Positions 7,652 through 30,822 of a DNA stretch of 31,012 bases are shown here, in pieces. Made by a program: the position numbers and the translations under genes. Source of the stretch: a virus. A model generated the notes under the pieces. It searched no databases and was not told the DNA's origin. It worked only from the letters and a program-made list of their open reading frames with translations. The DNA lies in IMG/VR virus record IMGVR_UViG_3300011997_000009, positions 1 to 31,012 of that record. One strand, given 5' to 3'. How positions within the stretch are numbered: position 1 is the first letter of the stretch; each line of letters begins with the position of its first letter.

Positions 7652-8283
7652 GTCAGAGTGTGGCGCACGTAATCGCGCAGGGTTCGCTCGACCAGGGGAA
7701 CTAGATCAACGCCCGCAGCGGCGGCGGGCGTGCTCGCCTTTTCGGCGATCGAGAGGCCCAGCTTGTCGCGCTGGCTCCAGACGTATTCGCATTGGAAAAG
7801 CCACGCGAAGAAGAGATCGTTGGGCAGCGCAGTCGAACCGGTCGGCACCGCGGTCGGATAGCCAACGTCGGCGGGCTCCAGCGTTTCGAAAAAGTATCCA
7901 CCGGTGTAGGTCAGCCGGATCCGCGAATCGGACGAACCGAAGATGCCGTTGAAGCGCACGAGTCCGGCTGACTCGGAGAGGTTCAGAATGTTGTCGTTGA
8001 CCGCGCCCTGATCGACGTAGCCATCGGTCAGCGTGTCGCGCAGCTCCACCTTGGTGATCTCCTCGATCGGATAACGCGGTAGCACGATGTGGCTGCGATC
8101 GGCGCTGAACTCGAACGTGTCGGCGGCGACTCGACCGAACACGCGGTTGCAACGCTTCTCCATGAGCGCTGCAACGCCCTTGCCGAGGTTGGCAATGGGC
8201 GTGTCGTAATCCGTGCCGGAGACGAGCGCCGCGGTGAGCAGGTGCGTCTTGAGCGTGGAGAGATTGCCGAGACCGAGGTTCAT
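7648..8283 (-). CDS. Head-tail connector / head completion protein
   Basis: 211 aa. The protein starts with a helical segment (LSTLKTHLLTAALVSGTDYD). It then has LEKRCNRVFGR-like and LPRYPIEEITKVELRD sequences, characteristic of gp6-type connector proteins ('R.PI..i..v...d'). A strand-rich middle (IRLTYTGGYFFE) and a C-terminal helical region with LVERTLRDYVR follow. It is likely to form a ring below the portal. Position after the capsid gene and before the gpG-like gene supports this. The family assignment is by motif and order. Confidence 0.7.
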   Translation of the reverse strand: MNLGLGNLSTLKTHLLTAALVSGTDYDTPIANLGKGVAALMEKRCNRVFGRVAADTFEFSADRSHIVLPRYPIEEITKVELRDTLTDGYVDQGAVNDNILNLSESAGLVRFNGIFGSSDSRIRLTYTGGYFFETLEPADVGYPTAVPTGSTALPNDLFFAWLFQCEYVWSQRDKLGLSIAEKASTPAAAAGVDLVPLVERTLRDYVRHTLT

Positions 8284-8288
8284 GAGAC

Positions 8289-8363
8289 TTAGCGGGTGAT
8301 GATGGGGAGCGGGCGCTTGATCGGCGCGGGCATCGGTTTTTTGACTGGTGGTTTAGGAAGCAT
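8289..8363 (-). CDS. Possible 24-aa Pro/Lys-rich peptide
   Basis: A short frame between the capsid hairpin and the connector gene encodes MLPKPPVKKPMPAPIKRPLP and four more residues before a stop at 8289-8291. It fills most of the gap between the two genes on the same strand. It is strongly basic and proline-rich. No convincing ribosome binding site precedes the ATG, so it may be untranslated. Small basic proline-rich peptides occur in this position in some phages, but no function is known to me. Confidence 0.35.
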   Translation of the reverse strand: MLPKPPVKKPMPAPIKRPLPIITR

Positions 8364-8379
8364 TTGAGGGCTCTCTAAA

Positions 8380-8407
8380 GCCCTGCGCCAAGAGGCGCGC
8401 AGGGCTG
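8380..8407 (-). terminator. Hairpin after the capsid gene
   Basis: A perfect 10-bp stem (AGCCCTGCGC / GCGCAGGGCT) with an 8-base loop lies just downstream of the major capsid stop codon on the leftward strand. Only three T residues follow it on that strand. It is better viewed as an attenuator or mRNA 3' stabiliser than a strong terminator. It would help raise capsid mRNA above the downstream connector and tail genes. Confidence 0.55.
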
Positions 8408-8425
8408 CTAAGAGAACTCAGCCGT

Positions 8426-9829
8426 TTAGCTTGCGGCAGTCTCCAATCCGCCGACGGCGCCCAGGGCCATCAGACCGATCGTGAAGCGCTCCAACGCGCG
8501 GACCAGAATCTCGTCGGTCGTGAAGCCGGCCTCCTTCGAGGTCGCGATCTCCATGCCCTTGCGGACGCCGAGATACTGATAGGACACGTCGCCGAACAGG
8601 ACGAACACGGTGGAGACATTCGCGCTTGTATCGTAGGCGGGCATCACATCCACCCAGCGGATCGGAAAGCCGTCGAGGCTCGCGCCCTGGATGCCGTTCG
8701 CGATATAGGGCTTGTCGCCCGAGCTGTTCATCGCGGCCAGCGTCTGCTCGAACGTCGGGTGCATGTAATATGCCGAGGTGCCGAGCGCAGCGGCATCGAC
8801 CTTGGATCGGGTGAGGCGAAGATTCGCGAGGGTGATGTCGCTGTACTTTGTCTTCGTGGCAGCCTGCTGCACGACCTTCGAGTTGGTGATCGTCGAGTAC
8901 GTGAGTCCCTCGACGGCGCCCTGCGTGCTGCCATCGCCAACGAAGAAGAGCGTGTCTTCCGCCTTGGCCATCTGGCGCGCACAGTAGCGACCGAGGAATT
9001 GACCCATTGCGACAATCGAATCTTCATCCAATTCGGATGGCAGCGTGATGAGGCCGCCGGTTTTTTCCGGCGTGAAGGTCACGAATACGATCGTCGGTGA
9101 CTTCGCCGTGACGGCCGCACTGGAAGCGATCAACCCGAAAGCGGTGTCGGTGCCCAGCTGCGGGAGCTTGACGACGCCGGCGCCGAGCGGGAATACGGTG
9201 CCGTACTTGCGAGCCGCACCGAATTGGGAAACCAATTCAACGACCTCGCCCTGCCACTGCGTCGGGATCGGAATGTCGCTCGTGGTGAGAGATGCCTTGG
9301 CTTCGATGCCGAGGCATTCGCGAATCTTGGCCTCGACATCGCTAACGCGGAGATTGCTGAGCTTGTCCTGATTGCGCGCAGCGAGCAGGTAAACGCCGCC
9401 GAGGAATTTTGCGGCCCCATCGGACAGGAAGCCAGGCTTCGGTGCACGCTGGGAGATCGCGCTCTGAGCCAGCGAGAGCCGGCGGAACTCGATCATTTCC
9501 TTCTGCACTTCAGCGACGAGCTTCACAACTGACTCGTAGTCGCCTCTGTTTTTCTCGATGGCCTTTTCGATCTCGTCGATCTTGCCGAGGCGCTTGTTGA
9601 TCGCTTCGAGGGAATCGACGAGGGTCTTGTTGACCTGCTTCGTTTCCTCTTCGGAGGTGATGCCGAGGGCGAGCGGGGCCATGTGCAGGCCGCCGGTCTT
9701 GAGCAGATTATAGGCAGTCATCAGCGTGACCGCTGCGACCCAGAGAAGCACCGGCTTGGCGCTGTCGAAGCCTCGCGCGAAGAGCAGCGAGAGGCAGTTG
9801 AACTTTAGCTTGTGAGCAAACGATTTCAT
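8426..9829 (-). CDS. HK97-fold major capsid protein
   Basis: 467 aa. Residues 60-125 form a charged coiled coil (INKRLGKIDEIEKAIEKN, VAEVQKEMIEFRR), the usual scaffolding delta domain removed by the prohead protease. The rest has capsid-family features: VKLPQLGTDTAFG, FTPEKTGGLITLPSELDEDS, the helix MGQFLGRYCARQMAKAEDTLFFVGDG, and a closing segment YQYLGVRKGMEIATSKEAGF. The start is unusual. Residues 1-50 contain a hydrophobic stretch (KPVLLWVAAVTLMTAYNLL) that looks like a membrane or signal segment. An internal ATG at 9682 (MAPLALGITSEEE) would avoid it. The protease gene directly upstream supports the call. Confidence 0.85.
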   Translation of the reverse strand: MKSFAHKLKFNCLSLLFARGFDSAKPVLLWVAAVTLMTAYNLLKTGGLHMAPLALGITSEEETKQVNKTLVDSLEAINKRLGKIDEIEKAIEKNRGDYESVVKLVAEVQKEMIEFRRLSLAQSAISQRAPKPGFLSDGAAKFLGGVYLLAARNQDKLSNLRVSDVEAKIRECLGIEAKASLTTSDIPIPTQWQGEVVELVSQFGAARKYGTVFPLGAGVVKLPQLGTDTAFGLIASSAAVTAKSPTIVFVTFTPEKTGGLITLPSELDEDSIVAMGQFLGRYCARQMAKAEDTLFFVGDGSTQGAVEGLTYSTITNSKVVQQAATKTKYSDITLANLRLTRSKVDAAALGTSAYYMHPTFEQTLAAMNSSGDKPYIANGIQGASLDGFPIRWVDVMPAYDTSANVSTVFVLFGDVSYQYLGVRKGMEIATSKEAGFTTDEILVRALERFTIGLMALGAVGGLETAAS

Positions 9830-9836
9830 GTGAGAT

Positions 9837-9854
9837 GTCCGCGCGTGGGCGGAC
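9837..9854. other. Small hairpin ahead of the capsid gene
   Basis: GTCCGC and GCGGAC flank a 6-base loop in the 32-bp gap between the protease and capsid genes. A run of six T follows on the + strand, but the genes here are read leftward. The structure would therefore lie in the 5' leader or inter-gene segment of capsid mRNA, preceded by an A-run. A role in mRNA stability or translation is a guess. Confidence 0.35.
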
Positions 9855-9861
9855 GGATTTT

Positions 9862-10581
9862 TTAGAGGTGGGATTGTATCGACGCTATCAATGCGAGCTT
9901 CGTCCGCGGAGAGGTGGCGTCGGCGTCCGCGGAGATGGCGGCCGGCGCTACGTTTTTCGATGCTGCAACTGCAGCGGCAAATTTATCGATGTCCTCCTCG
10001 TTGAGGCATCCGGCTTTATAGGCACGCGCCAAAGCGTTCGGATTCGCACCGATCACGCACGCGCTGAGTTCAATCTGTTGCTGCTTGATGTAGATCGTGC
10101 CAACCTTGGCCGCGATTTCTGCGGACAGCTTCATGTCCATGGCGGCTTGGGAATGCTCGGCGGCATTAGTCCAACGCGAAGTTGCCTTCACGGGTACAAA
10201 TCCGACGGATACCGCTTTGAGAAAATGAGCGACCGTCATTTTCCAGCCGAGATCGGCGAGCGGGTTGCCAATGCCGATCGCCCACTGCACGCCTTCAATC
10301 AACTGGCCTTTCTCGATCCGCCAGGAGATCACGCGACCAAGAAGTTTCTCGATGGTGCTGTAATCGTGGCTGTCGGGAAACGGCGCATTTTTCTCGAAGA
10401 TGTCGAACATCCAACCGCTCGCGCTCACGATCTCGTTGTAGCAGTCGAGCGTTTCGTCGCTGGCGACATATTCACAGGTGCCGTCTTTCTCGGAAAGCAC
10501 GCGAACCGTAGGATGAATTTCGCGGCGAAGCGGCGCGGAGAGCCCGGCGCGTGCAAGGAGAGTTTGGAGATCGGTTTTCAT
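9862..10581 (-). CDS. HK97-type prohead protease
   Basis: 239 aa. The layout fits the U35 herpesvirus-assemblin-like serine proteases. A core strand (ETLDCYNEIVSASGW) is followed by a helix and FPDSHDYS, containing the conserved His (about H72). LKAVSVGFVP contains the catalytic Ser (about S124) in the typical 'vSiGF.p' context. The C-terminal 70 residues are Ala-rich and likely self-cleaved. The enzyme matures the capsid by removing the delta domain of the adjacent major capsid protein. The start overlaps the stop of the portal-MuF gene by four bases. Confidence 0.85.
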   Translation of the reverse strand: MKTDLQTLLARAGLSAPLRREIHPTVRVLSEKDGTCEYVASDETLDCYNEIVSASGWMFDIFEKNAPFPDSHDYSTIEKLLGRVISWRIEKGQLIEGVQWAIGIGNPLADLGWKMTVAHFLKAVSVGFVPVKATSRWTNAAEHSQAAMDMKLSAEIAAKVGTIYIKQQQIELSACVIGANPNALARAYKAGCLNEEDIDKFAAAVAASKNVAPAAISADADATSPRTKLALIASIQSHL

Positions 10582-12857
10582 GAATCGGAAGATTTGGGGG
10601 CGGCGACGGAGATGCTGACGCAGTGGCAGTTGATGACGTTGGCGGCGCTGCCGCCTTCTTCGCCGGGGTACATGAGCGACTCACCATCGACGACGAAGGG
10701 CTCATCGATCGGGATCGCGCGCTCGGGCGGATAGTCGGCACCGGCCTGCAGGTGCGCGGCACGCACGTTGTCGTTGCCGCTCGTGAGCCAGGCTTTGTAC
10801 TGCACGCCGGCCTGCTTCATCGCCTGATCGCGGCCGGCACCATAGGCGGCGCCTGTCTCCGTGAGCGCGATACTCTTCGCGCGCTCGTCGCTGATGCCGT
10901 TGAAGGCGCCGCGCACGCGTGCGGCGAGTTCATCGGCGGTGTCGCCTTTGTTGAGACCTTCTTCGAGCGTGGCTTTGATTTCCTCGTAGATTGAGGTCGG
11001 CACGTCGCGCAGCTTGTTCTCGCGGCCCGCGAGGAAATCGAGCACCTCGGCCGCAGGATACGTGAATGGATCATCCTTGCCCACTTCTCCGAGCAGTTGC
11101 TCACCGGCGGTCTGCAGCGCAGACTTCTGCTGCTTGCGCATAGTGGCCGTGAAGGCGTCGGTGAATTTCGCGAGGTCGAAAAGGAAATCGACGGCAGCCG
11201 CCTTCGTGGTTGCCGAGCGCTCCAGGCCAGCGCCGGCCATGCTGTCGAGCTTGCGCAAGACTTCCTGCCGCGCACCCATGACGACGCGGCCGATGGCGCT
11301 TTGGAAACTCTTCACCGTCGCGCGGCGTTTCGACATCAGCGTTTTCCACTGGGCGATTTGCTTCGGGGTCTGCGCTTTGTTCTCCGCGGGCTGAAGGCTG
11401 GTCTTAAACGCGAGATGCGCGGGGCATTGGCAGCGGAACATCGCGAACTCGTCGGACGGCTCATCGGGGACGGTTCGCCCTACCTTTTCGCAGGACATGC
11501 GCGAGCGCGTGGCGATGAGCGCCTTGATCTGCGCGATCTCGGGCAGGTCGGGTGTGACGTTCTTTGGTTCGGCGAGCGTGGGGTCCTTCGAGGGATCGAC
11601 GGCCGGCGTGGCATCGCCCGTCGCCGAAACGCTGAAGGGCAGATAACCAACGTCCCAGCCGGGGAAAGGATCGAGACCGAGATCGAGGTAATCGTTCGCG
11701 ACGGAGACCGGCACGCCGACGCCCCAGAGCTTGAGCAGGGAATCAATGCGGCCGTTGCGCACCTCGACCATGACGGGATGATCATCCCAGTCGAGTTCGG
11801 CGGTAAGCGTGCGGCCAGCCATGCGGCTGCCGACCTTCGCGAGCGTGCTGGCGATCGCGTTGCCTGTCGGCATGCATGTCGCGGTGATGAGCTGGTAGCG
11901 GTCGCTGTCTTTGCCGACCGAATACGATTGCTTCACCGTTGCCATCGACGGCGGAACGCCGAAAGCAATGAAGATTTCCTGCGCGGAGAGTGAGAGCGTG
12001 CCGAGGAGATCGGTGCTGGCGGAGCGCTCGGGCGGGCGCTCGATCGTGATGTCGCCGGTGAAAAAGGAATCGACCGCGATACCACGACGCAGCGAGGCAC
12101 GCTTCGCGCGGAGATCGGCTTTGATTTGATCGCGCTGCGCATCGTCAACGACGCCGTTCTTCGCGATGACGTTCATCCCCTGATCGCCGTTGTTCCGCAT
12201 CAGATCGCGGATGTAAACGCCGGTGGAGAACGCGCTCTCGCTCGCGATGCGCGCGGCGGCCAGCGCGCCCACGCCGCGCCAGTCGTCATACGCATTGTAA
12301 TCTTTCCAGTGCACGACCTGCTCAGGCAGGAGGATGATCTGCCGGCCGCCGGGTTCGGAGTACCGCCAGCCGACAAGCGTATCGCCCTGCACGATGACCT
12401 GCATGCGCGACGGGTTCGCAATGATGAAGGGCGTGAGTGAGGCGGGATTGCGCGACGCGGTGGCGAGCAGCCACGCGTCATCGAAGAGCAGAAAGAATTC
12501 GCCTTCGCCGGAGGCCCACGAAGCGAGATCGCGCAGCACATCGGCGCGCGTGAGGCGTGGCTGCGCGGCGCCGAGCGTCTTCGGCCCGAGAGCGGGCGCT
12601 TCCCACCAGGCGACGAAGGCAGGATCGGTGACCTCGTTTTCGCCGTCGTAGAATTTCAACGCCCGGCCGGAGATTTCTCCCGAGATGGCGCGTTGCGCGG
12701 CGCGTATCCAGGAGGATTGACTATAGGGCTCGCTGAGCCGGTTGGGCTGGACGTTGTCGGCCATATCGTCGCCGCGCGACCACGACGCGGCGAACGCGGC
12801 GAAGGATTTGCCCGTGACGGCGAAGAGAGCTGCGTTGACGCGTGCGGCGAAACTCAT
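10578..12857 (-). CDS. Portal protein fused to MuF-like minor head protein
   Basis: 759 aa. Roughly residues 35-430 look like an HK97/Mu-type portal: LASWASGEGEFFLLFDDAW, RMQVIVQGDTLVGWRYSEPG, VVHWKDYNAYDDWRGVGALA (the conserved 'r.iS.l' type loop), and IFIAFGVPPSMA, the family's 'afgVPp..l' motif. A Cys-bearing linker follows near residue 475 (FRCQCPAHLAF). The C-terminal 200 residues resemble Mu gpF: a helical repeat region, IALTETGAAYGAGRDQAMKQ, and a final NVINCHCVS, the metal-binding 'N..NCrC' motif. Portal and MuF proteins are separate genes in Mu but act at the same vertex, so the fusion is functionally sensible. The large terminase gene lies four bases upstream. Confidence 0.85.
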   Translation of the reverse strand: MSFAARVNAALFAVTGKSFAAFAASWSRGDDMADNVQPNRLSEPYSQSSWIRAAQRAISGEISGRALKFYDGENEVTDPAFVAWWEAPALGPKTLGAAQPRLTRADVLRDLASWASGEGEFFLLFDDAWLLATASRNPASLTPFIIANPSRMQVIVQGDTLVGWRYSEPGGRQIILLPEQVVHWKDYNAYDDWRGVGALAAARIASESAFSTGVYIRDLMRNNGDQGMNVIAKNGVVDDAQRDQIKADLRAKRASLRRGIAVDSFFTGDITIERPPERSASTDLLGTLSLSAQEIFIAFGVPPSMATVKQSYSVGKDSDRYQLITATCMPTGNAIASTLAKVGSRMAGRTLTAELDWDDHPVMVEVRNGRIDSLLKLWGVGVPVSVANDYLDLGLDPFPGWDVGYLPFSVSATGDATPAVDPSKDPTLAEPKNVTPDLPEIAQIKALIATRSRMSCEKVGRTVPDEPSDEFAMFRCQCPAHLAFKTSLQPAENKAQTPKQIAQWKTLMSKRRATVKSFQSAIGRVVMGARQEVLRKLDSMAGAGLERSATTKAAAVDFLFDLAKFTDAFTATMRKQQKSALQTAGEQLLGEVGKDDPFTYPAAEVLDFLAGRENKLRDVPTSIYEEIKATLEEGLNKGDTADELAARVRGAFNGISDERAKSIALTETGAAYGAGRDQAMKQAGVQYKAWLTSGNDNVRAAHLQAGADYPPERAIPIDEPFVVDGESLMYPGEEGGSAANVINCHCVSISVAAPKSSDS

Positions 12858-18727: not shown

Positions 18728-19001
18728 GGTCGATAAGTTCCAGGAGGCGCGCGAAGCGGGATTCCGCAACGCCATGTGCACGGCCGCGGTCGTGGCGTTC
18801 CGCCACATCGGCGATGTGGATATCAGCGAGCGCGAGTCTGTGCTCGTGACGCTGATCGAGCTGCTGCCGGAGTCCGAAGCAGAACTTGCCGAGGGCGTGC
18901 TCTATCACCTCCGCGAATCCAACAAGAAGCAGCTAAAGCTGCTCGGGATTCTCGATGCTCCGCCGGCTCGGCGCGGGCGCGAACTGAATTTTTCCAGATG
19001 A
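18720..19001 (+). CDS. Hypothetical early protein, 93 aa
   Basis: GTG start overlapping the preceding stop; its own stop overlaps the next start (ATGA). The product is largely helical (FQEAREAGFRNAMCTAAVVA, LVTLIELLPESEAELAEGVL). No family is recognised. The overlaps on both sides and codon use like its neighbours support translation. It belongs to the small regulatory or host-takeover genes that follow ner in Mu-like phages. Confidence 0.65.
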   Translation: MSEVDKFQEAREAGFRNAMCTAAVVAFRHIGDVDISERESVLVTLIELLPESEAELAEGVLYHLRESNKKQLKLLGILDAPPARRGRELNFSR

Positions 19002-19216
19002 GCACCATAATCCAAAATCGAATCCGCGCGCTCCGTGATCGCGCTGTCACCATCGGCCTCAACGAGGAGGAAGAGAAACTCCTGCGCGCCTTGGCCGCCA
19101 TCCCCGCGGAGAGCGCGAGCCGGCTCGATGAGCTGTCCGCAAGCCTCAGCGAACCAATGCGCACACCGGGCGCGCTGGCCGCGTTTTTCAAGAGCTTCGA
19201 CCAGCCCAACGGCTGA
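18998..19216 (+). CDS. Hypothetical early protein, 72 aa
   Basis: ATG overlapping the previous stop. The product starts MSTIIQNRIRALRDRAVTIG and continues as alternating charged helices (LNEEEEKLLRALAAIPAESA), ending in AFFKSFDQPNG. No motif is recognised. An upstream in-frame extension exists but lies inside the preceding gene. The coupling and operon position support it as a real gene. Confidence 0.6.
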   Translation: MSTIIQNRIRALRDRAVTIGLNEEEEKLLRALAAIPAESASRLDELSASLSEPMRTPGALAAFFKSFDQPNG

Positions 19217-19247
19217 GTTGCCCACGGAACACACGGATCACACGGAA

Positions 19248-19469
19248 ATGAAAAGCCCTCTTCAGTCAGTGGTCATTGATGACTTCGTTCTCGACCTCGC
19301 AATCTGCGGATCGGGTCAACCCGTGCGTCGGCCGGTCGTTCACTTCGCTGTCGACGTAGCTACGCGGAGGATGATCGCACTGGGCCAGCATGGCTTTTGC
19401 GTCCCTAGAAATATCGGGGATTTTTCCAAAGCTAGCGCCGGTAAATCACCGTCAGGTGTTTCGCGCTGA
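19248..19469 (+). pseudogene. Stray fragment of a MuA-type transposase catalytic domain
   Basis: 73 aa from the ATG at 19248. Residues 8-46 read VVIDDFVLDLAICGSGQPV then RRPVVHFAVDVATRRMIALG. The complete transposase at 20551-22779 has IVIDDFELDCMC and AMDVATRRKLHWGIG in the same order and similar spacing. So this frame carries the first catalytic-Asp strand and the next strand of an rve fold, then diverges completely (HGFCVPRNIGDFSKASAG). It lacks the second and third catalytic residues and all DNA-binding domains, so it cannot be an active transposase. Its stop overlaps the next start (TGATG), so it may still be translated. It could be a decayed copy or a retained regulatory fragment. Confidence 0.65.
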
Positions 19470-19795
19470 TGCCTGAGCAGCTCCAGTTTCCGTTTGCTTC
19501 GCTGGATTTTCCGGGGCGCTCCTCACTCTACCCGCACGAGATCAGCGCACGCGTGGGCATGTCGGTCGATCAGATCTACGATCTTGTCGACGACGGTTCG
19601 CTCGTCGCGATCAACATCAGCTCGACCGCAAACAAGACCGGGCGCCGCGCGCTGCGCATCCCGATCGAGAGCTACCGCAATTTCATCGTCGCACGCATGA
19701 CCGGCCCGATGCGCTTCGACCTGCTGCGGCACGTACCGAAGGCCTCGCTCCGCGAGCTGGTGCGCGAGATCAGCGATTTTCTCAAAGCCGCCTGA
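19469..19795 (+). CDS. Excisionase/MerR-like DNA-binding protein
   Basis: 108 aa. Residues 20-75 have a winged helix-turn-helix layout: SLYPHEISARVGMSVDQIYD, LVDDGSLVAINISS, then RRALRIPIESYRNFIV, the typical 'r.ri...dl..fi' wing. The rest is a short helical tail. Such proteins bind DNA at phage regulatory or end sites; in a transposable phage it could be a transcription factor or a transposition accessory. The start overlaps the stop of the transposase fragment. Confidence 0.65.
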   Translation: MPEQLQFPFASLDFPGRSSLYPHEISARVGMSVDQIYDLVDDGSLVAINISSTANKTGRRALRIPIESYRNFIVARMTGPMRFDLLRHVPKASLRELVREISDFLKAA

Positions 19796-19819
19796 GCGCG
19801 GGCAACCATCTCACTCTCC

Positions 19820-20533
19820 ATGCCCAAAGGAAAACAATCTCAGCCGACCGCGCTCCTCGTGCTCAGCGATCCCCAAATATGCACTACCGGTGCAAATTTG
19901 AAGAAGCTCCAGAAGGCTGCGATTGCGCAACTGAAGCAAATCCGCCAGCTCGAATCCGAATCAGCACTACGCGCCGTGTTCGTCGGCTTCGCGTTTCACC
20001 GGATCAAGGGCAGTTTGAAGCACGGCCAGTTTCTGCCGTGGATCAAGGCTAATGCCGACAGCACAGGCTACCGCCAGGCGAACTACTACATGCGACTCGC
20101 GATCGCGTTCATCGAGCACGGCCATCTCTCGCGAAAGGAACTTCTCGCACTGCCGGCAAACGCGAAGGGCGTATCGCTTTCCGCAAGCAGTGGACCGCTG
20201 GCCGATTTCATCACCAAGGCTGAAAAATTTGTCGGTGGAAAATCGCTGAACGAACTCCTCGACGAGTATGGCATCAAGGATGCAGGCAAGCTCGGCGGAG
20301 CACGGGCGAAGTCTCCGGCCGAGATCGACGCACCGGCCGACGCCGAGCAGCTCTACCTTTTCGCCCGCGATGAGATCGGCGGCGTGATCCTGCAGGCTGA
20401 GTCACTGCTGCTCAAAGAAAACCGGCTGCAGCACCTCTCCGGACACCCGGAGGAAATCGCGGGCGTCGTGATCAGCCTGCGCGAGCTGGCCGACAAGGTC
20501 GAAGCCGCTGCGAAACCATTTCTGAAAAAGTAA
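19820..20533 (+). CDS. DUF3102-like protein
   Basis: 237 aa. The central part (FHRIKGSLKHGQFLPWIKAN then GYRQANYYMRLAIAF) matches the signature of DUF3102-type proteins: a helix with 'k.gl.hG.f..wl' followed by 'f..r.A..ym.la'. These are found in phages and plasmids beside replication or transposition genes and are thought to bind DNA. The C-terminal part is helical (ADAEQLYLFARDEIGGVILQ). It lies directly upstream of the transposase gene. The role is not established. Confidence 0.6.
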   Translation: MPKGKQSQPTALLVLSDPQICTTGANLKKLQKAAIAQLKQIRQLESESALRAVFVGFAFHRIKGSLKHGQFLPWIKANADSTGYRQANYYMRLAIAFIEHGHLSRKELLALPANAKGVSLSASSGPLADFITKAEKFVGGKSLNELLDEYGIKDAGKLGGARAKSPAEIDAPADAEQLYLFARDEIGGVILQAESLLLKENRLQHLSGHPEEIAGVVISLRELADKVEAAAKPFLKK

Positions 20534-20550: not shown

Positions 20551-22779
20551 ATGAACGCCGCCCTTCTCTTGCAGACCACAGATAACGAGCTTGCACAGCC
20601 TTTGTCGTTCTCGGTGCCGATCGCCGACATGACCGCGTTTTCCGAGTTGCCCGAAGCGAGGCGCACGGAGGTGCAGGTGTATCTGAAGTTGATCGAGCGC
20701 GTGCACGCGCTGCGCGGGCCGGAAGCCAGCCTGGAGCGGGCGGTGCAGACGGTCGCGGCCACGAGCCGGCACATCATGCGGGGATGCTCTCCGGTGAATT
20801 TGCGCCGCAAATACGACGCCTTCTTTTCTCTCGATGAGGATGGCAAGCCGATCGGCTGGCGCGGGCTCGTCGCGCACTTCAAGGCGCCATCGAGCCAACC
20901 GGATGCGTTCAAAAACTACGTCAAAAAAGTCGCGGAGGAAAACCAACGCAGCCAGACGCAAGCTTTCGAATTGATCCGCCAGCAGTGGCGCGATGGTCAT
21001 CCCATCCCCGGTTACGGCACTTGGATTGAACATCACATCCGCATATACCCGATGCGGCCGGTGCCGAAGATCTGCCCGCGTTTATTTTTCCCGACGGGCT
21101 GGAGCATTCGCAACCTGCGCAACATGGCCCCGAACAAGGGCGCGAGAATGCTCGCGCTGCGCGGCACGGCGGCGGCGAAGAAATTCTTCGCGTCGATGAA
21201 GCGCGACCCGTCGGGCCTGCGGCCTTTCGAGATGATCGTGATCGATGACTTCGAACTCGATTGCATGTGCGTCTTCCCCGGTGACACGACGCACAAACCA
21301 CAGATCGGCCGCGTGGCGGGATTGCTGGCGATGGACGTGGCGACGCGCCGAAAGCTTCACTGGGGCATCGGCCAGCGCCTGGAGCGCACCGAAGAACAGC
21401 CCGACGGAACGGTGAAGACGGTGCGGACCGGCATCACCCGCGTCGACGTGCAGCTGCTGCTGCACGGGCTGTTCGCCAAGTATGGGATGCCCGAATACAT
21501 CGTCACGATCCTCTGCGAAAACGCCGCTGCCGCGATTTCTCCTGAGCTGGAGCTGGCGCTGACAACTCTCTTCGAAGGCCGCGTGCGTGTAGAGCGCACC
21601 GGGCTGATCGATCACAAAACGCTTTCAAACGGTTACTGCGAGAAGGGTGGCAAGCCGTGGGAGAAGGGCTGGATCGAAAGCACGTTCAACCTCCTCTGGA
21701 ACAAGCTGGGCAACATGCCCGGCTACAAGGGCAGCAACCAACGGCTCAACGCACCGGGCGACCTCGATGCCAAGATCGCCTACACGAAACTCCTGCTCGG
21801 CCAGGGTGAGCGGGCGCTGAACTTGCCGCCGGAAAAAATCATTCTGCTGCGTCTGCCTTTCCCGTCTCCGCAGGCCGTCGAGCAGGCGTTTGCCTGGGCG
21901 TGCTCAGCGAGCGACTGCAACGATAATCACCGCTATCTCGGTTTCGAACGCGTGACGGAATACGTGATCGAAGAGGGTGCCGACCCGGTGCCGTTCACGG
22001 CGCTGGCGCTGCTCCCGCCCGAGGCGCAGGCGCTCGTGACACCCGTGCCGCGCATGGAGACATCGCTGGAGCGGTTTGGCCGGCTGATGATGAATGTGAC
22101 GATGCACGCGATCCCGCCGTCGGTGCTGGCGCTGATGCTGCTGACGCCGAAGAAGGTCACGTATCGCAACCATGCGGTGACGTTCGTGCACGACCGCGCG
22201 GGCTACAGTTATCTCGACGGCGCGGGCAACGTGCTGCGCGACGTACAGGACGGCACGGAGTTTCTCGGGTACGTCGATCTAAAAGCCCCGGAGCAATTGC
22301 ACCTCGCCACGCTCAAAGGTGCCTTCGTGGGCACGCTCACGCGCCTTGGCGGGCACAAGGGCATGATCGACATCCGCAACAAGGCGGCGCTGAAGGAAGG
22401 CGCGGCACTGCAGGCCACCGTCTTCAATCGCGAGCTAGCAACTGTGCGCGAGCGCCACGCCGACCAGGACGCGCAGCTAGCGCAGGACCGCGCGCACAAC
22501 GCAGCACTCGTCGAGCAGCACAAGATCGAGACCGGCGGCATGAGCGCCGCCGAGAAGATCGCGGCGGCGGCCGGCGAGAACGCGGCGCGAAAGTACGAAG
22601 AGGACAAACGCGCCGCGAAGGCCGCGCGTCCAGTGCCTGCGCAAGTGGCCGGCAAGGGCCTTGCCGACCTGTTGCACGATGAAGGCACGCCAGCACCGGC
22701 CACGATCACCGCGCACAACGCCGTCGAGCGCGAAGAGGGCTCCGACGACACGCCAGGCACGCTCTCTGACATCACCTGA
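20551..22779 (+). CDS. MuA-type DDE transposase
   Basis: 742 aa, close to MuA's 663 plus insertions. Residues 25-200 contain helical DNA-binding regions (FSELPEARRTEVQVYLKLIE, AVQTVAATSRHIMRG). The rve-type catalytic core runs from about 225 to 390: MIVIDDFELD (D232/D233), LLAMDVATRRKLHWG, YIVTILCENAAAA (E323) and WEKGWIESTFNLLWNKLG (E376). The second catalytic position is Glu in a C-E-N context, where MuA has Asp in I-D-N. The C-terminal part has a beta-barrel-like region (VTYRNHAVTFVHDRAGYSYL) and an Ala/Glu/Arg-rich tail that would contact the MuB-like partner. The ATPase gene follows 41 bp later. It would catalyse replicative transposition. Confidence 0.9.
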   Translation: MNAALLLQTTDNELAQPLSFSVPIADMTAFSELPEARRTEVQVYLKLIERVHALRGPEASLERAVQTVAATSRHIMRGCSPVNLRRKYDAFFSLDEDGKPIGWRGLVAHFKAPSSQPDAFKNYVKKVAEENQRSQTQAFELIRQQWRDGHPIPGYGTWIEHHIRIYPMRPVPKICPRLFFPTGWSIRNLRNMAPNKGARMLALRGTAAAKKFFASMKRDPSGLRPFEMIVIDDFELDCMCVFPGDTTHKPQIGRVAGLLAMDVATRRKLHWGIGQRLERTEEQPDGTVKTVRTGITRVDVQLLLHGLFAKYGMPEYIVTILCENAAAAISPELELALTTLFEGRVRVERTGLIDHKTLSNGYCEKGGKPWEKGWIESTFNLLWNKLGNMPGYKGSNQRLNAPGDLDAKIAYTKLLLGQGERALNLPPEKIILLRLPFPSPQAVEQAFAWACSASDCNDNHRYLGFERVTEYVIEEGADPVPFTALALLPPEAQALVTPVPRMETSLERFGRLMMNVTMHAIPPSVLALMLLTPKKVTYRNHAVTFVHDRAGYSYLDGAGNVLRDVQDGTEFLGYVDLKAPEQLHLATLKGAFVGTLTRLGGHKGMIDIRNKAALKEGAALQATVFNRELATVRERHADQDAQLAQDRAHNAALVEQHKIETGGMSAAEKIAAAAGENAARKYEEDKRAAKAARPVPAQVAGKGLADLLHDEGTPAPATITAHNAVEREEGSDDTPGTLSDIT

Positions 22780-22820: not shown

Positions 22821-23984
22821 ATGACGACAACGACTGACACCGCGGGCTTCGCGGACAACGACAACAAACCTGCCGCGCTCCCCGAGTGGGATGGCACCAA
22901 TCTCGCCGGCGACGTGGCCGAGGCGGGGATCCGCAAAAACCATCCGGAGTATCACGATGATCTGCGCTGGTGGTTTCGCTACACGATCGAGCGGCAGATG
23001 AGCCAGGCCGAGGCGGCGCGCACGCTCGGCGTCGACGGCGGCACGTACTCGAAAGTTTTTCGCGGCGAATACAAAAACGGCGCGGGGCTGATCCTGGCGC
23101 CCCCGGCGAAGATGCTCTCGCGCATCCGCGTGATGCGCGACCAGGAGAGGGACAACGCCGTGCTGCGCATCAAGGGCCGCGTGATGACGCCGACCGTCGC
23201 GGAAATTCACAACGTGTGCCGCAAGGCGTGGAATGACCAGAACATCGCTTTCATCTTTGGCGAGTCGCACATCGGCAAGACCGAGGGCCTGCTGTGGTTT
23301 CGCGATGAAAACAACCATGGGGCGACGATCTTCGTCGACCTGCAGGGCGTCGCAGGCGAGCAGGATGTTTACCGGGCGTTTGCCCGAGCGCTCAAGATCA
23401 GCGCCGACACGCCGATCGCGAAGCTGAAGCCGCGCGTGTTTGCCGCGATCGACCGCACGAACCTCGTGCTCGTCGATGAGTTTCACGCGATCACCTATGC
23501 CTACCAAAAAGGTGGCGCAGTGCGGATGATCAACGCGCTGAAGGCGATCAAGGACAAGACCGGCTGCGCGATGGTGATCTGCTCGACCAATGTAGGCCGC
23601 GACGAATTCGACGAGAAGACGGGGCACGAGTCGAAGCTGCTCAAACAACTCTGGCGCCGTGGCGTGATCAAGCTGCAGCTGCCGGACGCCCTGCGCGTGG
23701 GCGACGTGCGCGCGTTTGCGGAGGCGTTCAGCCTGCCATTCCCCGAAGAGCCCGAGGGCGCGGCCGACACGTGGAAGAACCTGCGCGCATATCACCCGAC
23801 GTTCGAGGGTTTGGACGTGTGCGAGAATATCGCATACAATTACGGCGTGAAGCACCTCGTGTGCGTCATCCAGGACGGCGCGAAGTTCGCCCAGAAGCGG
23901 AAGGAAAACAAAGAGCTGCGCTGGGCCGACGCGATCAAGGCGCAGGCCGTGTATGATTCGCTCAGCGCGAGAAAAGCCGTGTGA
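22821..23984 (+). CDS. MuB-type AAA+ transposition ATPase
   Basis: 387 aa. Residues 58-82 form a helix-turn-helix (MSQAEAARTLGVDGGTYSKV), as in MuB's N-terminal domain. The ATPase core has Walker A FGESHIGKTEG (147-154), Walker B NLVLVDEFHA (about 214-222) and a sensor-1 strand MVICSTN (251-257). A small C-terminal helical domain follows (NIAYNYGVKHLVCVIQDGAK). MuB-type proteins bind target DNA, give target immunity and activate the transposase. Position right after the transposase is canonical. A long open frame on the opposite strand is a GC-bias shadow. Confidence 0.9.
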   Translation: MTTTTDTAGFADNDNKPAALPEWDGTNLAGDVAEAGIRKNHPEYHDDLRWWFRYTIERQMSQAEAARTLGVDGGTYSKVFRGEYKNGAGLILAPPAKMLSRIRVMRDQERDNAVLRIKGRVMTPTVAEIHNVCRKAWNDQNIAFIFGESHIGKTEGLLWFRDENNHGATIFVDLQGVAGEQDVYRAFARALKISADTPIAKLKPRVFAAIDRTNLVLVDEFHAITYAYQKGGAVRMINALKAIKDKTGCAMVICSTNVGRDEFDEKTGHESKLLKQLWRRGVIKLQLPDALRVGDVRAFAEAFSLPFPEEPEGAADTWKNLRAYHPTFEGLDVCENIAYNYGVKHLVCVIQDGAKFAQKRKENKELRWADAIKAQAVYDSLSARKAV

Positions 23985-26438: not shown

Positions 26439-27026
26439 ATGCAAGATCACGACGACGAGACATTGGTGAGGCTCTTCCAGGAGGGCGACGCGCGCGCTTT
26501 CGATGAGATCGTGCGGCGGTATCGCCCGAAGATGTGCCGAGTGGCGGAGCGCGTGTTGAGCAATCACGCCGATGCGGACGACGTGGTGCAGCAATCGCTC
26601 GTGAGCGCGTGGCGGAGCCTGGGGCGATTCCGCGGCGAGTGCAGTTTCAGCACGTGGCTCTTCACGATCACGAAGCGGCGCGCATTCAATCGGTACAAGA
26701 GCCGCTGGATGAGGCAGCGCAAAGCATCGATCTCGCTCGATGCGAAGATCGGCGAGAGCGAGCAATCGGCGGCGGACAGCGTCGCATGCAAAGCGCCGCA
26801 GCCGGGCGATGAGTGCGAGACGACCGAGCTGGCGGACTCGCTCACGCGTGGGCTGGAGCGGCTGTCGGAAGAACATCGGGAGGTTCTGATTTTGCGCACG
26901 GTGCACCATCACAGCTACGAGCATATTGCCGCGGTGCGCTCGATCCCAGTCGGGACGGTGAAAAGCAAACTCTCCCGCGCGCGTGCGAGCCTGCGCATGA
27001 GAGTGAATCAGGAAGTGTTCGCGTAA
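26439..27026 (+). CDS. ECF-type sigma factor
   Basis: 195 aa from the ATG at 26439; an upstream extension overlaps the preceding gene. Sigma region 2 spans about residues 20-90 (FDEIVRRYRPKMCRVAERVL, HADADDVVQQSLVSAWRSLG, GECSFSTWLFTITKRRAFNR). Sigma region 4 spans about 138-186 (LERLSEEHREVLILRTVHHH, YEHIAAVRSIPVGTVKSKLS, RARASLRMRV). No anti-sigma gene lies beside it. Mu uses Mor and C to activate middle and late genes; no Mor/C homologue is seen here, so this sigma may take that role (inference). Its stop codon overlaps the first attC. Confidence 0.9.
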   Translation: MQDHDDETLVRLFQEGDARAFDEIVRRYRPKMCRVAERVLSNHADADDVVQQSLVSAWRSLGRFRGECSFSTWLFTITKRRAFNRYKSRWMRQRKASISLDAKIGESEQSAADSVACKAPQPGDECETTELADSLTRGLERLSEEHREVLILRTVHHHSYEHIAAVRSIPVGTVKSKLSRARASLRMRVNQEVFA

Positions 27027-27112
27027 CAACTCGGGTCAGAAATGACCCTCTAACCAATAACCAAATCACCAGCGGGCACCGCAGGGTCATTTTCTGTAGC
27101 CGCTGGTTATGC
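27021..27112 (+). other. attC site 0 (sigma gene / cassette 1)
   Basis: Read in order: R'' GCGTAAC (27021-27027, containing the sigma stop TAA), 9-nt spacer, L'' CAGAAATGACCCT (27037-27049), a 33-nt variable loop, L' AGGGTCATTTTCTG (27083-27096, one extra base), 9-nt spacer, R' GTTATGC (27106-27112). R'' and R' pair with only one G-T wobble. R'' departs from the RYYYAAC consensus at one base. The loop also contains ACCAGCGG, which could pair with CCGCTGGT just before R'. The full hairpin architecture is that of an integron attC. Confidence 0.75.
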
Positions 27113-27134
27113 TCCGTAAATTTAAACTTTCGCT

Positions 27135-27488
27135 ATGAATACAACGACCAAAAAACCTGAATGTAAAATCGAAGGCGTGACCTTCTTTCCGGTTCCGACC
27201 GTGCCCTCGTTCGCTCCTGAATCTGCCTATTTCCCGCGCCGTAAAACGCCGGAGATTCCGCGAGAATACGAAGACATGGCGAACAACCTTTTCTTCAAGG
27301 GTGGCGCACTCCCTGAAATGTCGCCGCTCGTGGACAGGGCGAAGGCTTTCGCTGCCGTCCGCAACTGGCTCCAGAGCTTCAATCCGGCTCACGAAGTCAA
27401 GACGGCCACCGTGGGATACGCTCTCTGGCTGTGGTGCGACCATGAAACTCTGTCTTTGCATAACGCACAAGCTGAGCCACGTAGGTAA
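27135..27488 (+). CDS. Cassette 1 product, hypothetical
   Basis: 117 aa in a 420-bp cassette (27107-27526). The start lies 23 bases after the R' core, the compact spacing usual in integron cassettes, and the frame ends inside attC site 1. The protein starts MNTTTKKPECKIEGVTFFPV. It has a Pro-rich N-terminal half and a helical C-terminus (AKAFAAVRNWLQSF, HEVKTATVGYALWLW). No family is recognised. The DNA is visibly less GC-rich than the flanking phage genes, pointing to a separate origin. No promoter of its own is evident. Confidence 0.65.
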   Translation: MNTTTKKPECKIEGVTFFPVPTVPSFAPESAYFPRRKTPEIPREYEDMANNLFFKGGALPEMSPLVDRAKAFAAVRNWLQSFNPAHEVKTATVGYALWLWCDHETLSLHNAQAEPRR

Positions 27489-27532
27489 GTGGCTCGGCAC
27501 TTACCGAAGTTGGCTCTAGCGAATGGTTGGGC
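27458..27532 (+). other. attC site 1 (cassette 1 / cassette 2)
   Basis: R'' GCATAAC (27458-27464) is the exact reverse complement of the GTTATGC that starts cassette 1. A 9-nt spacer, L'' GAGCCA (27474-27479), an inner hairpin GGTAAGTG/CACTTACC with a 6-nt loop (27484-27505), L' TGGCTC (27511-27516), a 9-nt spacer and R' GTTGGGC (27526-27532) follow. An unpaired T after L' provides the extrahelical base. Recombination would occur between G and T of GTTGGGC. Confidence 0.88.
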
Positions 27533-27548
27533 TCCGTCTAAAACGCTC

Positions 27549-27854
27549 ATGAAAAAACTAATCAGAATACTAACACGCTGGGCATGGGTGCCCGTGCTAA
27601 GAGAAGCCGAACAAGAACGCTGGGACTTAGAGAAACACCGCGATGCGCTCAAGGGTCTGTATAACGACACGAAGCCGTGGACGGACCAACTCCAAGACGA
27701 GAACGCACGGCTGCGCAATCTGGCATTCCAGATGCGGATGAGCTTCCGCCGGGCCAAGGGGCGCTCGATGCAATGCACGCCTTACAACTGGCCGAATACC
27801 GACCGCCTTCCGCGTCTGCCCAACGGTCGGGATGAGCCGATGCGCAGCCAATGA
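27549..27854 (+). CDS. Cassette 2 product, hypothetical
   Basis: 101 aa in a 377-bp cassette (27527-27903), start 17 bases after the R' core. The product begins MKKLIRILTRWAWVPVLREA and has a charged helical middle with coiled-coil character (ERWDLEKHRDALKGLYND, QLQDENARLRNLAFQMRMSF). Basic residues dominate the C-terminus. The frame runs through R'' and the first arm of attC site 2. No family is recognised. Confidence 0.6.
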   Translation: MKKLIRILTRWAWVPVLREAEQERWDLEKHRDALKGLYNDTKPWTDQLQDENARLRNLAFQMRMSFRRAKGRSMQCTPYNWPNTDRLPRLPNGRDEPMRSQ

Positions 27855-27909
27855 CTCACGACCAACAGAACGGGCAAATATGCGCATTGGCTCTGTCCCG
27901 TGGTTAGGC
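27818..27909 (+). other. attC site 2 (cassette 2 / cassette 3)
   Basis: R'' GCCCAAC (27818-27824) is the exact reverse complement of the GTTGGGC that starts cassette 2. Then come a 9-nt spacer, L'' GAGCCGATGCGC (27834-27845), a 36-nt loop, L' GCGCATTGGCTC (27882-27893, pairing with one G-T wobble), a 9-nt spacer and R' GTTAGGC (27903-27909). The L boxes share the GAGCC/GGCTC core with site 1. The spacers can pair partly as GGGA/TCCC. Confidence 0.88.
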
Positions 27910-27925
27910 TCCGAATTTTCAACCC

Positions 27926-28147
27926 ATGATACCGATGAATGCACGTAAAGAACTAGCGATCCAAGCCCTGCAAAACATGAAGGGCGATGACACCTATCGC
28001 GCTCGCTCCGCCTTTCGCGGAATGAACGCTGACCAGATGAAAGAACAGCATGGCATGAGCGGGAAAACTCGCGCCCAAATACTCGCGGAATACGAAGTCC
28101 ACGACGCCCAGATTGAAGCGGCAATCGCGTGGGTTCGCTCTGCCTAA
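27926..28147 (+). CDS. Cassette 3 product, hypothetical
   Basis: 73 aa, starting 16 bases after the R' core; a second Met is at residue 4. The product is helical (ARKELAIQALQNMKGDDTYR, HDAQIEAAIAWVRSA) with a central polar region (GMNADQMKEQHGMSGKTRAQ). The stop TAA lies inside R'' GCCTAAC, as the sigma stop lies inside its R''. No family is recognised. Confidence 0.6.
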   Translation: MIPMNARKELAIQALQNMKGDDTYRARSAFRGMNADQMKEQHGMSGKTRAQILAEYEVHDAQIEAAIAWVRSA

Positions 28148-28148
28148 C
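28142..28148 (+). other. Half attC (R'' of cassette 3) abutting intI
   Basis: GCCTAAC is the exact reverse complement of the GTTAGGC that opens cassette 3, so it is that cassette's R''. The expected second half (L' and a GTTRRRY core) is missing. Instead the intI ATG follows after 33 bases. The array therefore ends in a truncated site. Confidence 0.75.
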
Positions 28149-28181
28149 AGGTGATTCTGGGAAGCGCTCTTCGTATATCAG

Positions 28182-29240
28182 ATGCTCACTCAGGCACAGC
28201 GCACGGCGACGGAAATCAGGGTGCAATGGTTGCGCCTGCATCCGAAGCAGCGGGCCGCGATCGAAACACAAATCGAGGCCACGCGCACGGGCGTGCGGTT
28301 GCGCAAATGGTCTTACACCACGGAGCGCTGCTATTGCGCCTGGGTGCGACGCTACGGGGTCTGGCTTGCGTTCTCGGCTGAGGCTCGCGCCGCGAAGGAT
28401 TCGACGGAGCGGTTGACGCTTTATCTCGCACACCTGGTCAACGGTCCGACGCCGCGCTCGGCGACGACGTTGAAACAGGCTTTAAACGCGCTTGTCTGGT
28501 ATTATAAAGACGTGCGCAAAGAGCCGATCGGCCGGCTCGGCGATATCCCGCGCCCGAAGATGGCACCGCGCGCGCCGCACGTACTCACGCGCGAGCAGGT
28601 CAAGGCGCTGATCGGAGCGGTCAGCGACACAGCGGATCAGCCTTATAAGCTCATTTGCCGGCTGCTTTATCACACGGGCATGCGCATTTCCGAGGTGCTC
28701 GATCTTCGGGTGCAGGATATCGGCTGGGAACACTCGGAAATAATGCTGCGCGCGGCCAAGGGAAACAAGGATCGCACGGTGCCGTTGCCGGCGGCGTTGA
28801 TGGTCGAACTCCGTGCGCAGCTCGACCGCGTGCGCACACTCTGGCAGCGGGATCAACTCGACGGCACGCCGGTGGCGTTGCCCGATGGCGTGTTTAATAA
28901 GTGCCCGCGCTATGGGCTGGCGTGGCCGTGGTTTTTTGTCTTCGCGGCGGCGGGTCGTTGCACACATCCGCGTCTCGGCCATCTCGTGCGGTGGAGGTTG
29001 CACGATAAGACGCTGCAGACAGTCGTGCGCGGGGCAGCGGAGCGCGTTGGCCTGCTCGGAATCGCAACACCTCACCGGCTGCGTCACGCCTACGCGACGC
29101 ATCTGCTGGAGAGCGGCGTCGATATCCGGTCGGTGCAAGATATTTTGGGGCACGTCGATGTTGCGACGACGATGATCTATACGCACGCGAGCGTGCGCGG
29201 CGTGCACGTGCGCGCGAGCGTGGAGGCGCTGGCTTGCTGA
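28182..29240 (+). CDS. intI: Integron integrase (IntI-family tyrosine recombinase)
   Basis: 352 aa. The N-terminal core-binding domain has the IntI pattern LRKWSYTTERCYCAWVRRYG and TLKQALNALVWYYKDV. The catalytic domain shows HTGMRISEVLDLRVQDI (R168), AAKGNKDRTVPLP (K193), ATPHRLRHAYATHLLESG (H298, R301) and ILGHVDVATTMIYTHASVRG (H324, Y333). Between patches it carries VALPDGVFNKCPRYGLAWPW followed by FFVFAAAG, the added segment found in integron integrases and not in XerC/D. It should recombine attC (and attI) sites. It lies next to three attC-flanked cassettes but is read in the same direction as them. Its stop overlaps the next start (TGATG), so it is part of the phage operon. Confidence 0.93.
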   Translation: MLTQAQRTATEIRVQWLRLHPKQRAAIETQIEATRTGVRLRKWSYTTERCYCAWVRRYGVWLAFSAEARAAKDSTERLTLYLAHLVNGPTPRSATTLKQALNALVWYYKDVRKEPIGRLGDIPRPKMAPRAPHVLTREQVKALIGAVSDTADQPYKLICRLLYHTGMRISEVLDLRVQDIGWEHSEIMLRAAKGNKDRTVPLPAALMVELRAQLDRVRTLWQRDQLDGTPVALPDGVFNKCPRYGLAWPWFFVFAAAGRCTHPRLGHLVRWRLHDKTLQTVVRGAAERVGLLGIATPHRLRHAYATHLLESGVDIRSVQDILGHVDVATTMIYTHASVRGVHVRASVEALAC

Positions 29241-29812
29241 TGACTGCCGGCCAAACAGCCATGTATTTCGCCGAGTTCGGCAAGCTGCGCGACGTGCTCC
29301 GTGCGCGGGGATGGTCATCGACGCGGATCGAGCAGCACCGGGCCGCGATCACCGTGAAAGCGCTCGGGAAGCAGAAGTCTTCGAAGGTCTTCACGAATGG
29401 TGATCTCGACAAGGTGCTGGCGGTGATCACAGCTGATCGCGCGCCGGCGGATTTCGACGCTCAGATGCGGTTGCAGGACATGCCGGAAAAGCGCGTTGAG
29501 TTGATCATGGCACGGATCCGCTCGCTCAGTCTCAACGTCGGGCTCGATGAGGGCCATGAAAGCAGTTACGTTGGAGGGATATCGCTCCGGATGTTTGGCA
29601 CGCGGTCTTATGAGACGTTGACGGTGCAGCAGCTCGGCGTGATCGAGGGCGTATTGCGGCGCCGGCTGAAGCAGCGGCACTTGACGGTCGAGAAGATTCA
29701 GGAGATCGAGCGCGAGGCCGCGGAGTACGCGGCGGAAATCGTGGCTATCACGTCGCCGGAAATCGACCGGCAGCAGGCAAGGAAGCAGCTGGTCGTGGGC
29801 GAGGATTTTTGA
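29240..29812 (+). CDS. Phage protein, possibly gp16/GemA-like
   Basis: 190 aa from the ATG at 29240, overlapping the intI stop; an upstream TTG is less likely. The N-terminal half has YFAEFGKLRDVLRARGWSST, HRAAITVKALGKQKSSKVFT, NGDLDKVLAVITADRAP. This pattern recalls the regulatory gp16/GemA-type phage proteins ('lg..SskdltN.dld.vl'). The C-terminal half is helical (VIEGVLRRRLKQRHLTVEKI). Early-operon position agrees with GemA in Mu, but the family link is tentative. Confidence 0.6.
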   Translation: MTAGQTAMYFAEFGKLRDVLRARGWSSTRIEQHRAAITVKALGKQKSSKVFTNGDLDKVLAVITADRAPADFDAQMRLQDMPEKRVELIMARIRSLSLNVGLDEGHESSYVGGISLRMFGTRSYETLTVQQLGVIEGVLRRRLKQRHLTVEKIQEIEREAAEYAAEIVAITSPEIDRQQARKQLVVGEDF

Positions 29813-29815
29813 GTG

Positions 29816-30175
29816 ATGAGCGACGCGGTCGAAACTCCGGTGCCGTCTGTGACTCACGGAAACGTGCGCTGGCTCGTAGGGGCGTTGAAGACCGCCGGAG
29901 TTTGGAAGAAGCGCAACGAGCTGGGGATCGAGGAGCGCAAGGCTCGCCGGATCGCCTCAGTCGCGCGGCCGGTCGTCGTGAGTTATCCAGGCTCGCCGGG
30001 ATATTGCCATATCGACTTTGTCGATGACGGGGAGTTGGAGCACTGCATCAACGCGCACCGGGCCGTTGCTCGTGATGCGACTTGCACCGCTAATCTCTAC
30101 CAGCACGCGCTGAATCAGCGGCGGTTGAAGGCCTCGGCGCCTCGCATGCAATCCGAGCTGGCGCTCGATGTCTGA
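29816..30175 (+). CDS. Hypothetical phage protein
   Basis: 119 aa from the ATG at 29816; a GTG one codon earlier directly follows the preceding stop. GAGGA upstream may serve as ribosome binding site. The product has VRWLVGALKTAGVWKKRNEL (helical) and VVVSYPGSPGYCHIDFVDDG (strand), then a helical end with NLYQHALNQRRLKAS. No family recognised. Confidence 0.6.
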   Translation: MSDAVETPVPSVTHGNVRWLVGALKTAGVWKKRNELGIEERKARRIASVARPVVVSYPGSPGYCHIDFVDDGELEHCINAHRAVARDATCTANLYQHALNQRRLKASAPRMQSELALDV

Positions 30176-30177
30176 CC

Positions 30178-30822
30178 ATGGATGTGCTGGGGCAATTCCT
30201 GCAGCAGTCAGAGCCGGCCACCGATGCCAAGGCACGCGCGGCGGCCGATCTGGATCGACACAAGGCGGCCGAGGCGTGGCAGCTGGGCAGCGGAAAGACG
30301 CCAGAGGCCCGATTGCTGGCGTTTGACCGCTGGGTAAGGATCGAGCTGGCGGAGCGCCTGGAATGGGCTTGGGCGGGCGCGCATAAAGAGCGTCGAATCG
30401 AGCAATGCCGGATCAAGCTGGAGAGCGTCGTGCTCGATCTCTGGCGGCGCGGTTGGATGATCGACGGCCACCGGCTAGCGGCGAGGATCACGGAGCTGCT
30501 CAATGCCGCCGGCAAGTACCAGCGCGCCGGCAAAGTCGCTGATTTTTGGGCGTATTTCGGGGTCGCGTGCGACCGCTACGTCGGCGCCAATGCCGAAGAG
30601 ATCCGCGACGAATCGATGCGGGCGGGCGCGCATGTCTCGCAGCTGCTCGGGGCGCTCGGGATCCAGGCAGGCGCGAAGGCGCCCGCGTTGCCCGAGTTGA
30701 TCGCCCAGCGCGCCGACGAGATCGTGAAGGCGAAGGCCGAGACGCTGCGGGAAAAACTGAGCCGTGCACGAGCCCGTCAGGCCGCTTGCAAGGCCGATGC
30801 ACAGCAGCCACAACTGTGGTGA
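30178..30822 (+). CDS. Hypothetical helical protein, last gene of the operon
   Basis: 214 aa, almost entirely helical. It contains DRWVRIELAERLEWAWAGAH, CRIKLESVVLDLWRRGWMID, LAARITELLNAAGKYQRAGK and a C-terminal coiled region (IVKAKAETLREKLSRARARQ). No catalytic motif seen. It starts two bases after the preceding stop. It is followed by about 190 bp without genes that may be the phage's right end. Confidence 0.6.
   Translation: MDVLGQFLQQSEPATDAKARAAADLDRHKAAEAWQLGSGKTPEARLLAFDRWVRIELAERLEWAWAGAHKERRIEQCRIKLESVVLDLWRRGWMIDGHRLAARITELLNAAGKYQRAGKVADFWAYFGVACDRYVGANAEEIRDESMRAGAHVSQLLGALGIQAGAKAPALPELIAQRADEIVKAKAETLREKLSRARARQAACKADAQQPQLW

Follow-up and report, generated by a model that had tools for sequence, protein, structure and literature searches.

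A putative integron with reversed cassette genes in the early operon of a Mu-like phage

Results

Phage setting of the locus

The window, meaning the whole stretch of DNA that was analysed, is a 31-kb linear virus record of 31,012 nt (IMG/VR IMGVR_UViG_3300011997_000009). Its late genes (head, portal and terminase) occupy the minus strand, and from ~19.5 kb onward the plus strand carries the early genes. Near the start of the early operon is a MuA-like transposase (20551–22779, plus strand; phrog_310, E 1e-18), which has homologues in seven other viral contigs, followed by a MuB-like transposition protein (22821–23984, plus strand; phrog_296, E 1.5e-22). The presence of both a MuA-type transposase and a MuB-type ATPase in this operon identifies the phage as Mu-like.

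Downstream in the same operon, an ECF sigma factor gene (26439–27026, plus strand; Pfam Sigma70_r2 and r4) marks the outer edge of a gene cassette array, and its stop codon lies inside the outer core of the first attC site (attC0). As it ends within the outermost attC core in the way the cassette open reading frames (ORFs) do, this gene may be a former cassette without its attC. The array runs up to an integron integrase gene, intI (28182–29240, plus strand), which is followed by three conserved phage early genes on the plus strand. The first (29240–29812) is coupled to intI through TGATG and has tblastn matches in four relatives without an integron (L025, L026, L030 and L031); the second (29816–30175) has a homologue in L025 in the same order, and the third (30178–30822) shows 55–56% identity in L025 and L031. 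The sequence-only reading had described flanking early genes on the same strand and a TGATG coupling of intI to the next gene, and both are present.

The phage closest to the window by its transposase, L025, keeps all three genes that follow intI, and a search of it for IntI and attC found neither. The integron can thus be regarded as an accessory module in a phage operon. At the corresponding place in L025 (16577–17913), ASCH-like and DUF5131-like genes were recognised by eye; these are the same kinds of gene as those found in cassettes of other phages.

A phage-only clade of integron integrases

The intI product scored 279.9 bits against TIGR02249 (cut-off 265) in a profile search, and its scores against the XerC and XerD models fell far under the cut-offs of those models. 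Alignment showed the catalytic R, K, H, R, H and Y residues, as well as the insertion (additional domain) specific to IntI, which bears out the earlier proposal of an IntI-type integrase with its diagnostic insertion. In the phylogenetic tree, the window integrase and six phage homologues formed a single clade (support 100/100) on a long stem (length 1.49); this clade was nested within IntI and Xer lay outside it, as the IntI reading had predicted. In known IntI proteins, two histidines stack on the extrahelical base; W and R take their places in all seven clade members. With both of these positions altered, site recognition by the clade may differ from that of known IntI.

The six homologues, all from phage contigs, are 73–80% identical to the window IntI. 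Two of them come from Mu-like phages (L003 and L004) whose transposases are just 27–29% identical, and in both the intI gene and its array occupy the same part of the genome as in the window. The other four contigs carry terminase, portal or tail genes, and no close MuA match was found in them. No clade member was found in INPHARED. A search of 373 Opitutales genomes recovered a single clade IntI, in Geminisphaera colitermitum TAV2 (712 bits; next 241), and this copy is identical to that of a prophage contig (G002); apart from this prophage copy, no host integron IntI in those genomes was close to the phage proteins. Many of the loci compared in this work are metagenomic contigs.

attC sites of the array

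A covariance model of attC was trained on sites taken from chromosomal Opitutales integrons, from the class 1 integron of P1 and from phage integrons of Vibrio and Shewanella; the training set excluded the window's own family. With the search filters off, the model matched three sites in the window, all on the minus strand: attC0, outermost and distal to intI (27021–27112, E 3.8e-4), attC1 (27458–27532, E 5.9e-12) and attC2 (27818–27909, E 4.5e-4), the E-values being rough owing to a short calibration. Two of the three scores are modest, and the default settings returned only the best site, attC1. The same model gave no match in phage TJE1. An Rfam search also gave no match; we know of no attC family in Rfam.

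When folded as plus-strand DNA, each site was more stable than 200 shuffled sequences (z −3 to −4), so that the covariance scan and the folding proposed by the sequence-only reading both favoured attC sites. The mirrored cores noted in that reading (GTTATGC/GCATAAC, GTTGGGC/GCCCAAC and GTTAGGC/GCCTAAC) are at their reported positions. R and L boxes, spacers and extrahelical bases were all recognised in the window. The 9-nt spacers were confirmed, and two extra bases, 6 nt apart, were observed in the right-hand arm (plus strand) of attC0 and attC1; attC2 has no clear inner extra base.

The attI-like element and the polarity of the array

Directly before intI lies a conserved element (28142–28180, minus strand) that consists of a variable core, GCCT, and then the conserved AACAGGTGATTCTGGGAAGCGCTCTTCGTATATCA up to the start of intI. 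The copies were collected with a gapped pattern, as the length of the element differs between them. Ten copies, drawn from eight phage contigs, were compared; eight of them are alike and the remaining two represent a divergent version. Variation in the core begins outside AAC; the window and its relatives share the form AAC-RRGTGATTCTGG...TTCGTATATCA, with the divergent version in two others. At the intI-proximal junction, the variable core exactly complements the start core of the neighbouring cassette in all eight arrays compared. Judged by its sequence, the element is an attI-like site with a G/TT junction, read on the minus strand. Its place beside intI on this strand gives the order intI, attI, cassettes, which is classical.

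Within this element, a short palindrome (28161–28173) reads GAAG-N4-CTTC in the window and GAAC-N4-GTTC in relatives, keeping its pairing despite changes on both sides. It may be an operator or part of attI, and a LexA box was considered for the GAAC-N4-GTTC form. Two unusual arrangements were also recorded. Phage G004 (L002) has three attI copies (4623, 9733 and 18818), each ending a cassette cluster, and a single intI after the middle copy. A 70-kb viral contig (L108; IMGVR_UViG_3300000271_000006) carries attI and three attC sites within positions 1–1000; no IntI was found in this record, so that an integrase acting in trans would have to serve its array.

The extrahelical bases of known attC sites are found on the R''-L'' arm; when they are transferred to the opposite arm, the other strand is used (PMC2727003). 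The right-hand arm that holds the extra bases in the window holds them also in most scored attC sites of its relatives, often as two bases 6 nt apart, and it is the L'' arm when read on the minus strand. Control integrons from Vibrio and Shewanella, placed in the same orientation, have their extra bases in the same arm, and almost all of their annotated cassette genes occupy the minus strand, i.e. run in the classical direction. The attC model, moreover, matched the strand opposite intI in the window and its relatives. These three observations, the extra-base arm shared with controls whose genes lie on the minus strand, the strand of the model matches and the attI-like element adjoining intI, indicate a minus polarity of the window attC sites. 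The minus strand would then read intI (divergent), attI, cassette 3, attC2, cassette 2, attC1, cassette 1, attC0.

The sequence-only reading had taken the array in plus polarity. In such an arrangement attC would belong to the plus strand, the cassettes would be classical and intI would just follow the array at its distal end. As in classical cassettes, the ORFs do begin right after GTTNNNC and run to the next core, and the attC sites are near-palindromic. Nevertheless, we regard the plus polarity as most improbable: it places the extrahelical bases in the wrong arm, it runs against an independent attC model, and it leaves the last cassette without attC and the array without an upstream attI, yet a conserved attI-like element adjoins intI. 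The integron and its phage setting were thus correctly recognised, and the polarity was not. Under the minus polarity favoured here, the cassette starts and ends of that reading are swapped, and the core at 28142–28148 becomes the attI junction.

Direction of the cassette genes

The three cassette ORFs of the window lie on the plus strand, pointing toward attI in the same direction as the phage early genes and intI. Cassette 1 encodes 117 aa (27135–27488; weak phrog_36680 match), the ORF of cassette 2 (27489–27854) begins with a GTG inside attC1 or with an ATG at 27549, and that of cassette 3 (27926–28147, 73 aa) has its stop codon in the attI core. By the polarity deduced above, these genes are inverted with respect to both attC and attI, a feature that the earlier reading missed. 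Integron cassette ORFs are expected to follow the attC polarity and to be read from a Pc promoter in intI or attI; those of the window run against that polarity. Since a unit of minus polarity consists of an attC and the body to its right, each attC would precede its own gene as a 5' leader instead of following it as a tail. Several ORFs of the related phages begin inside attC (L002, L003, L006 and L007).

The direction was compared across integrons by ORF length, with margins beyond the cassette edges because ORFs start or end inside attC. Using ATG starts, chromosomal Opitutales integrons gave 38 classical and 3 reversed cassettes, whereas the window's family (family 1) gave no classical and 12 reversed ones, with 7 of its 19 cassettes unclear (38:3 versus 0:12, Fisher p 1.7e-9); the known phage integrons gave 7 classical and 1 reversed. 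A codon score assigned 17 cassettes of the window's family as reversed and none as classical; the control arrays lay below the floor of this score, and the contrast between chromosomal and phage integrons was accordingly drawn from ORF length with ATG starts. When GTG and TTG starts were allowed, family 1 gave 0 classical, 10 reversed and 9 unclear, and a second phage family, described below, gave 4, 6 and 15, a weaker contrast that is attributable to the long antisense frames common in GC-rich phages. Protein family matches on the plus strand (phrog_12600, ASCH, DUF5131 and C5 DNA methylase) agree with the reversed direction; for most cassette proteins, Pfam gave no function.

These results bear on whether the locus could be an ordinary host integron fragment caught by chance by a prophage and carried as passive luggage. 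Capture of host fragments has been documented in Vibrio and Shewanella phages (PMC9892861), and the attC sites of the window resemble chromosomal Opitutales ones, e.g. L099. Against this, the seven phage integrases form one long-stem clade far from host IntI, the module recurs in a corresponding region of the genome in diverged Mu-like phages and is present in other phages too, and the phage ORFs are reversed, unlike those of host arrays. Chance capture of this kind is therefore very unlikely.

Cassette turnover and further phage integron lineages

The arrays upstream of intI differ among the members of the window's clade, and some cassettes are held in common, between L002 and L006 (64%) and between L005 and L007 (52%). 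The clade lacks a near-identical pair of phages, and turnover within it rests on these shared and different cassettes among diverged phages. A near-identical pair was observed in another lineage. Viral contigs L008–L019 carry a different IntI, ~40% identical to that of the window, and several have phage tail, terminase and integrase genes. Two of them, L015 and L017, are >99% identical in intI and the nearby flanks; entire cassettes distinguish them, and the breakpoints fall at attC sites, which is direct evidence, at the level of sequence, of cassette turnover in this second lineage. The cassette-exchange slot that had been proposed for the phage fits these data, as the related Mu-like phages L003 and L004 have the same slot with cassettes that differ between phages.

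The array could alternatively be a decayed or immobile relic, in which IntI and attC persist without recombining and the cassettes are nothing more than phage early genes of the usual kind. No excision was seen, the array is short, with three cassettes, and the replaced histidines of its integrase clade would fit such a state. We nonetheless consider a relic unlikely: seven phages of the clade have intact reading frames and all catalytic residues, the core at the attI junction always matches the resident cassette, and cassettes are common to different phages.

In the second lineage, the attC matches again lie on the strand opposite intI. The codon score assigned 21 of its ORFs as reversed and 1 as classical, and the length of ATG ORFs gave 11 reversed, 2 classical and 12 unclear. 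Its cargo includes a Mom-family protein and an exonuclease. L017 also carries a phage reverse transcriptase (18862–19857; phrog_1423), possibly part of a diversity-generating retroelement. A further Mu-like phage (L021) has a third, distant IntI with three attC matches upstream (8073–10954), and its cassettes are too few to settle the ORF direction. Taken together, the cargo of the other phage integrons includes a Mom-like DNA modification protein, C5 DNA methylase, ASCH, DUF5131 and exonuclease, families that suggest roles in host takeover or anti-restriction.

Discussion

The locus combines an IntI of a phage clade, attC and attI-like sites, and cassette ORFs that run against their polarity, all within a phage operon. 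We consider it highly probable, on sequence grounds, that it is a phage-borne integron in the early operon of a Mu-like phage, with the normal integron order and polarity and reversed cassette genes, in which the cassettes would recombine and the operon would express them.

The general idea of integrons in phages is already known. They were described in 2023 by Qi et al. in Vibrio phages, P1 and Shewanella M16-3, along with CALINs in virulent phages, and the complete ones have a host-type or class 1 IntI (PMC9892861). The sequence-only reading, which knew of no integron as part of a transposable phage, was thus too broad for phages at large and stands for transposable ones: among open-access papers, with many journals outside this set, we found no description of a transposable phage with an integron, of an IntI clade specific to phages or of reversed cassettes. 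The phage integrons of Qi et al. resemble the window in having intI, attI, attC and cassettes within a phage genome and cargo that includes DNA methyltransferases (PMC9892861). They differ in that their ORFs were classical in the two tested, whereas the window has an IntI of a separate phage clade and reversed cassettes.

Chromosomal Opitutales integrons share with the window their attC sequence and geometry (e.g. the GAGCCAACG L box) and the intI-attI-attC order; their cassette ORFs, however, point away from intI and those of the window toward it, and their integrases are ~33–42% identical to its own. The Treponema arrangement can be understood as a flipped integrase gene with normal cassettes. 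As in the window, intI and cassette genes of these chromosomal integrons have the same direction, but there intI is transcribed toward attI (PMC3607928), whereas the window intI diverges from attI and it is the cassette genes that are turned round with respect to attC. Cargo slots of Mu-like phages, such as the mom region, likewise hold exchangeable accessory genes in a transposable phage, and the second phage family includes a Mom-like cassette; in the window, by contrast, exchange would proceed by site-specific recombination at attI and attC. To our knowledge, Mu itself has no integron.

In the mechanism that we propose, the mobile unit would be an attC followed by its gene. IntI would recombine the folded plus strand of attC with the attI beside its own gene, and all captured cassettes would enter in one orientation. 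Transcription would come from the early operon rather than from an integron Pc promoter; as the operon is read in the direction of attI, expression would be limited to cassettes whose genes are reversed. Such an orientation filter would keep the cassette pool largely phage-specific, and through the slot the phage could exchange small early genes, whose products may help against host defence. We lean, with some reserve, towards the broader reading that phages evolved integrons of their own more than once, with attC as a 5' leader, arrays expressed by the early operon and a pool of exchangeable early genes that is exclusive to phages, gene orientation separating it from host cassettes.

Integrons are known as gene-shuffling devices of bacteria. 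A dedicated phage integron, if confirmed, would mean that viruses use the same single-stranded recombination for early and probably counter-defence genes. The reversed cassettes cast doubt on the idea that transcription of cassettes always starts at Pc, and they yield a clear prediction, namely that orientation separates the host and phage cassette pools. The arrays further provide a short list of small phage genes that may be of interest against host defence.
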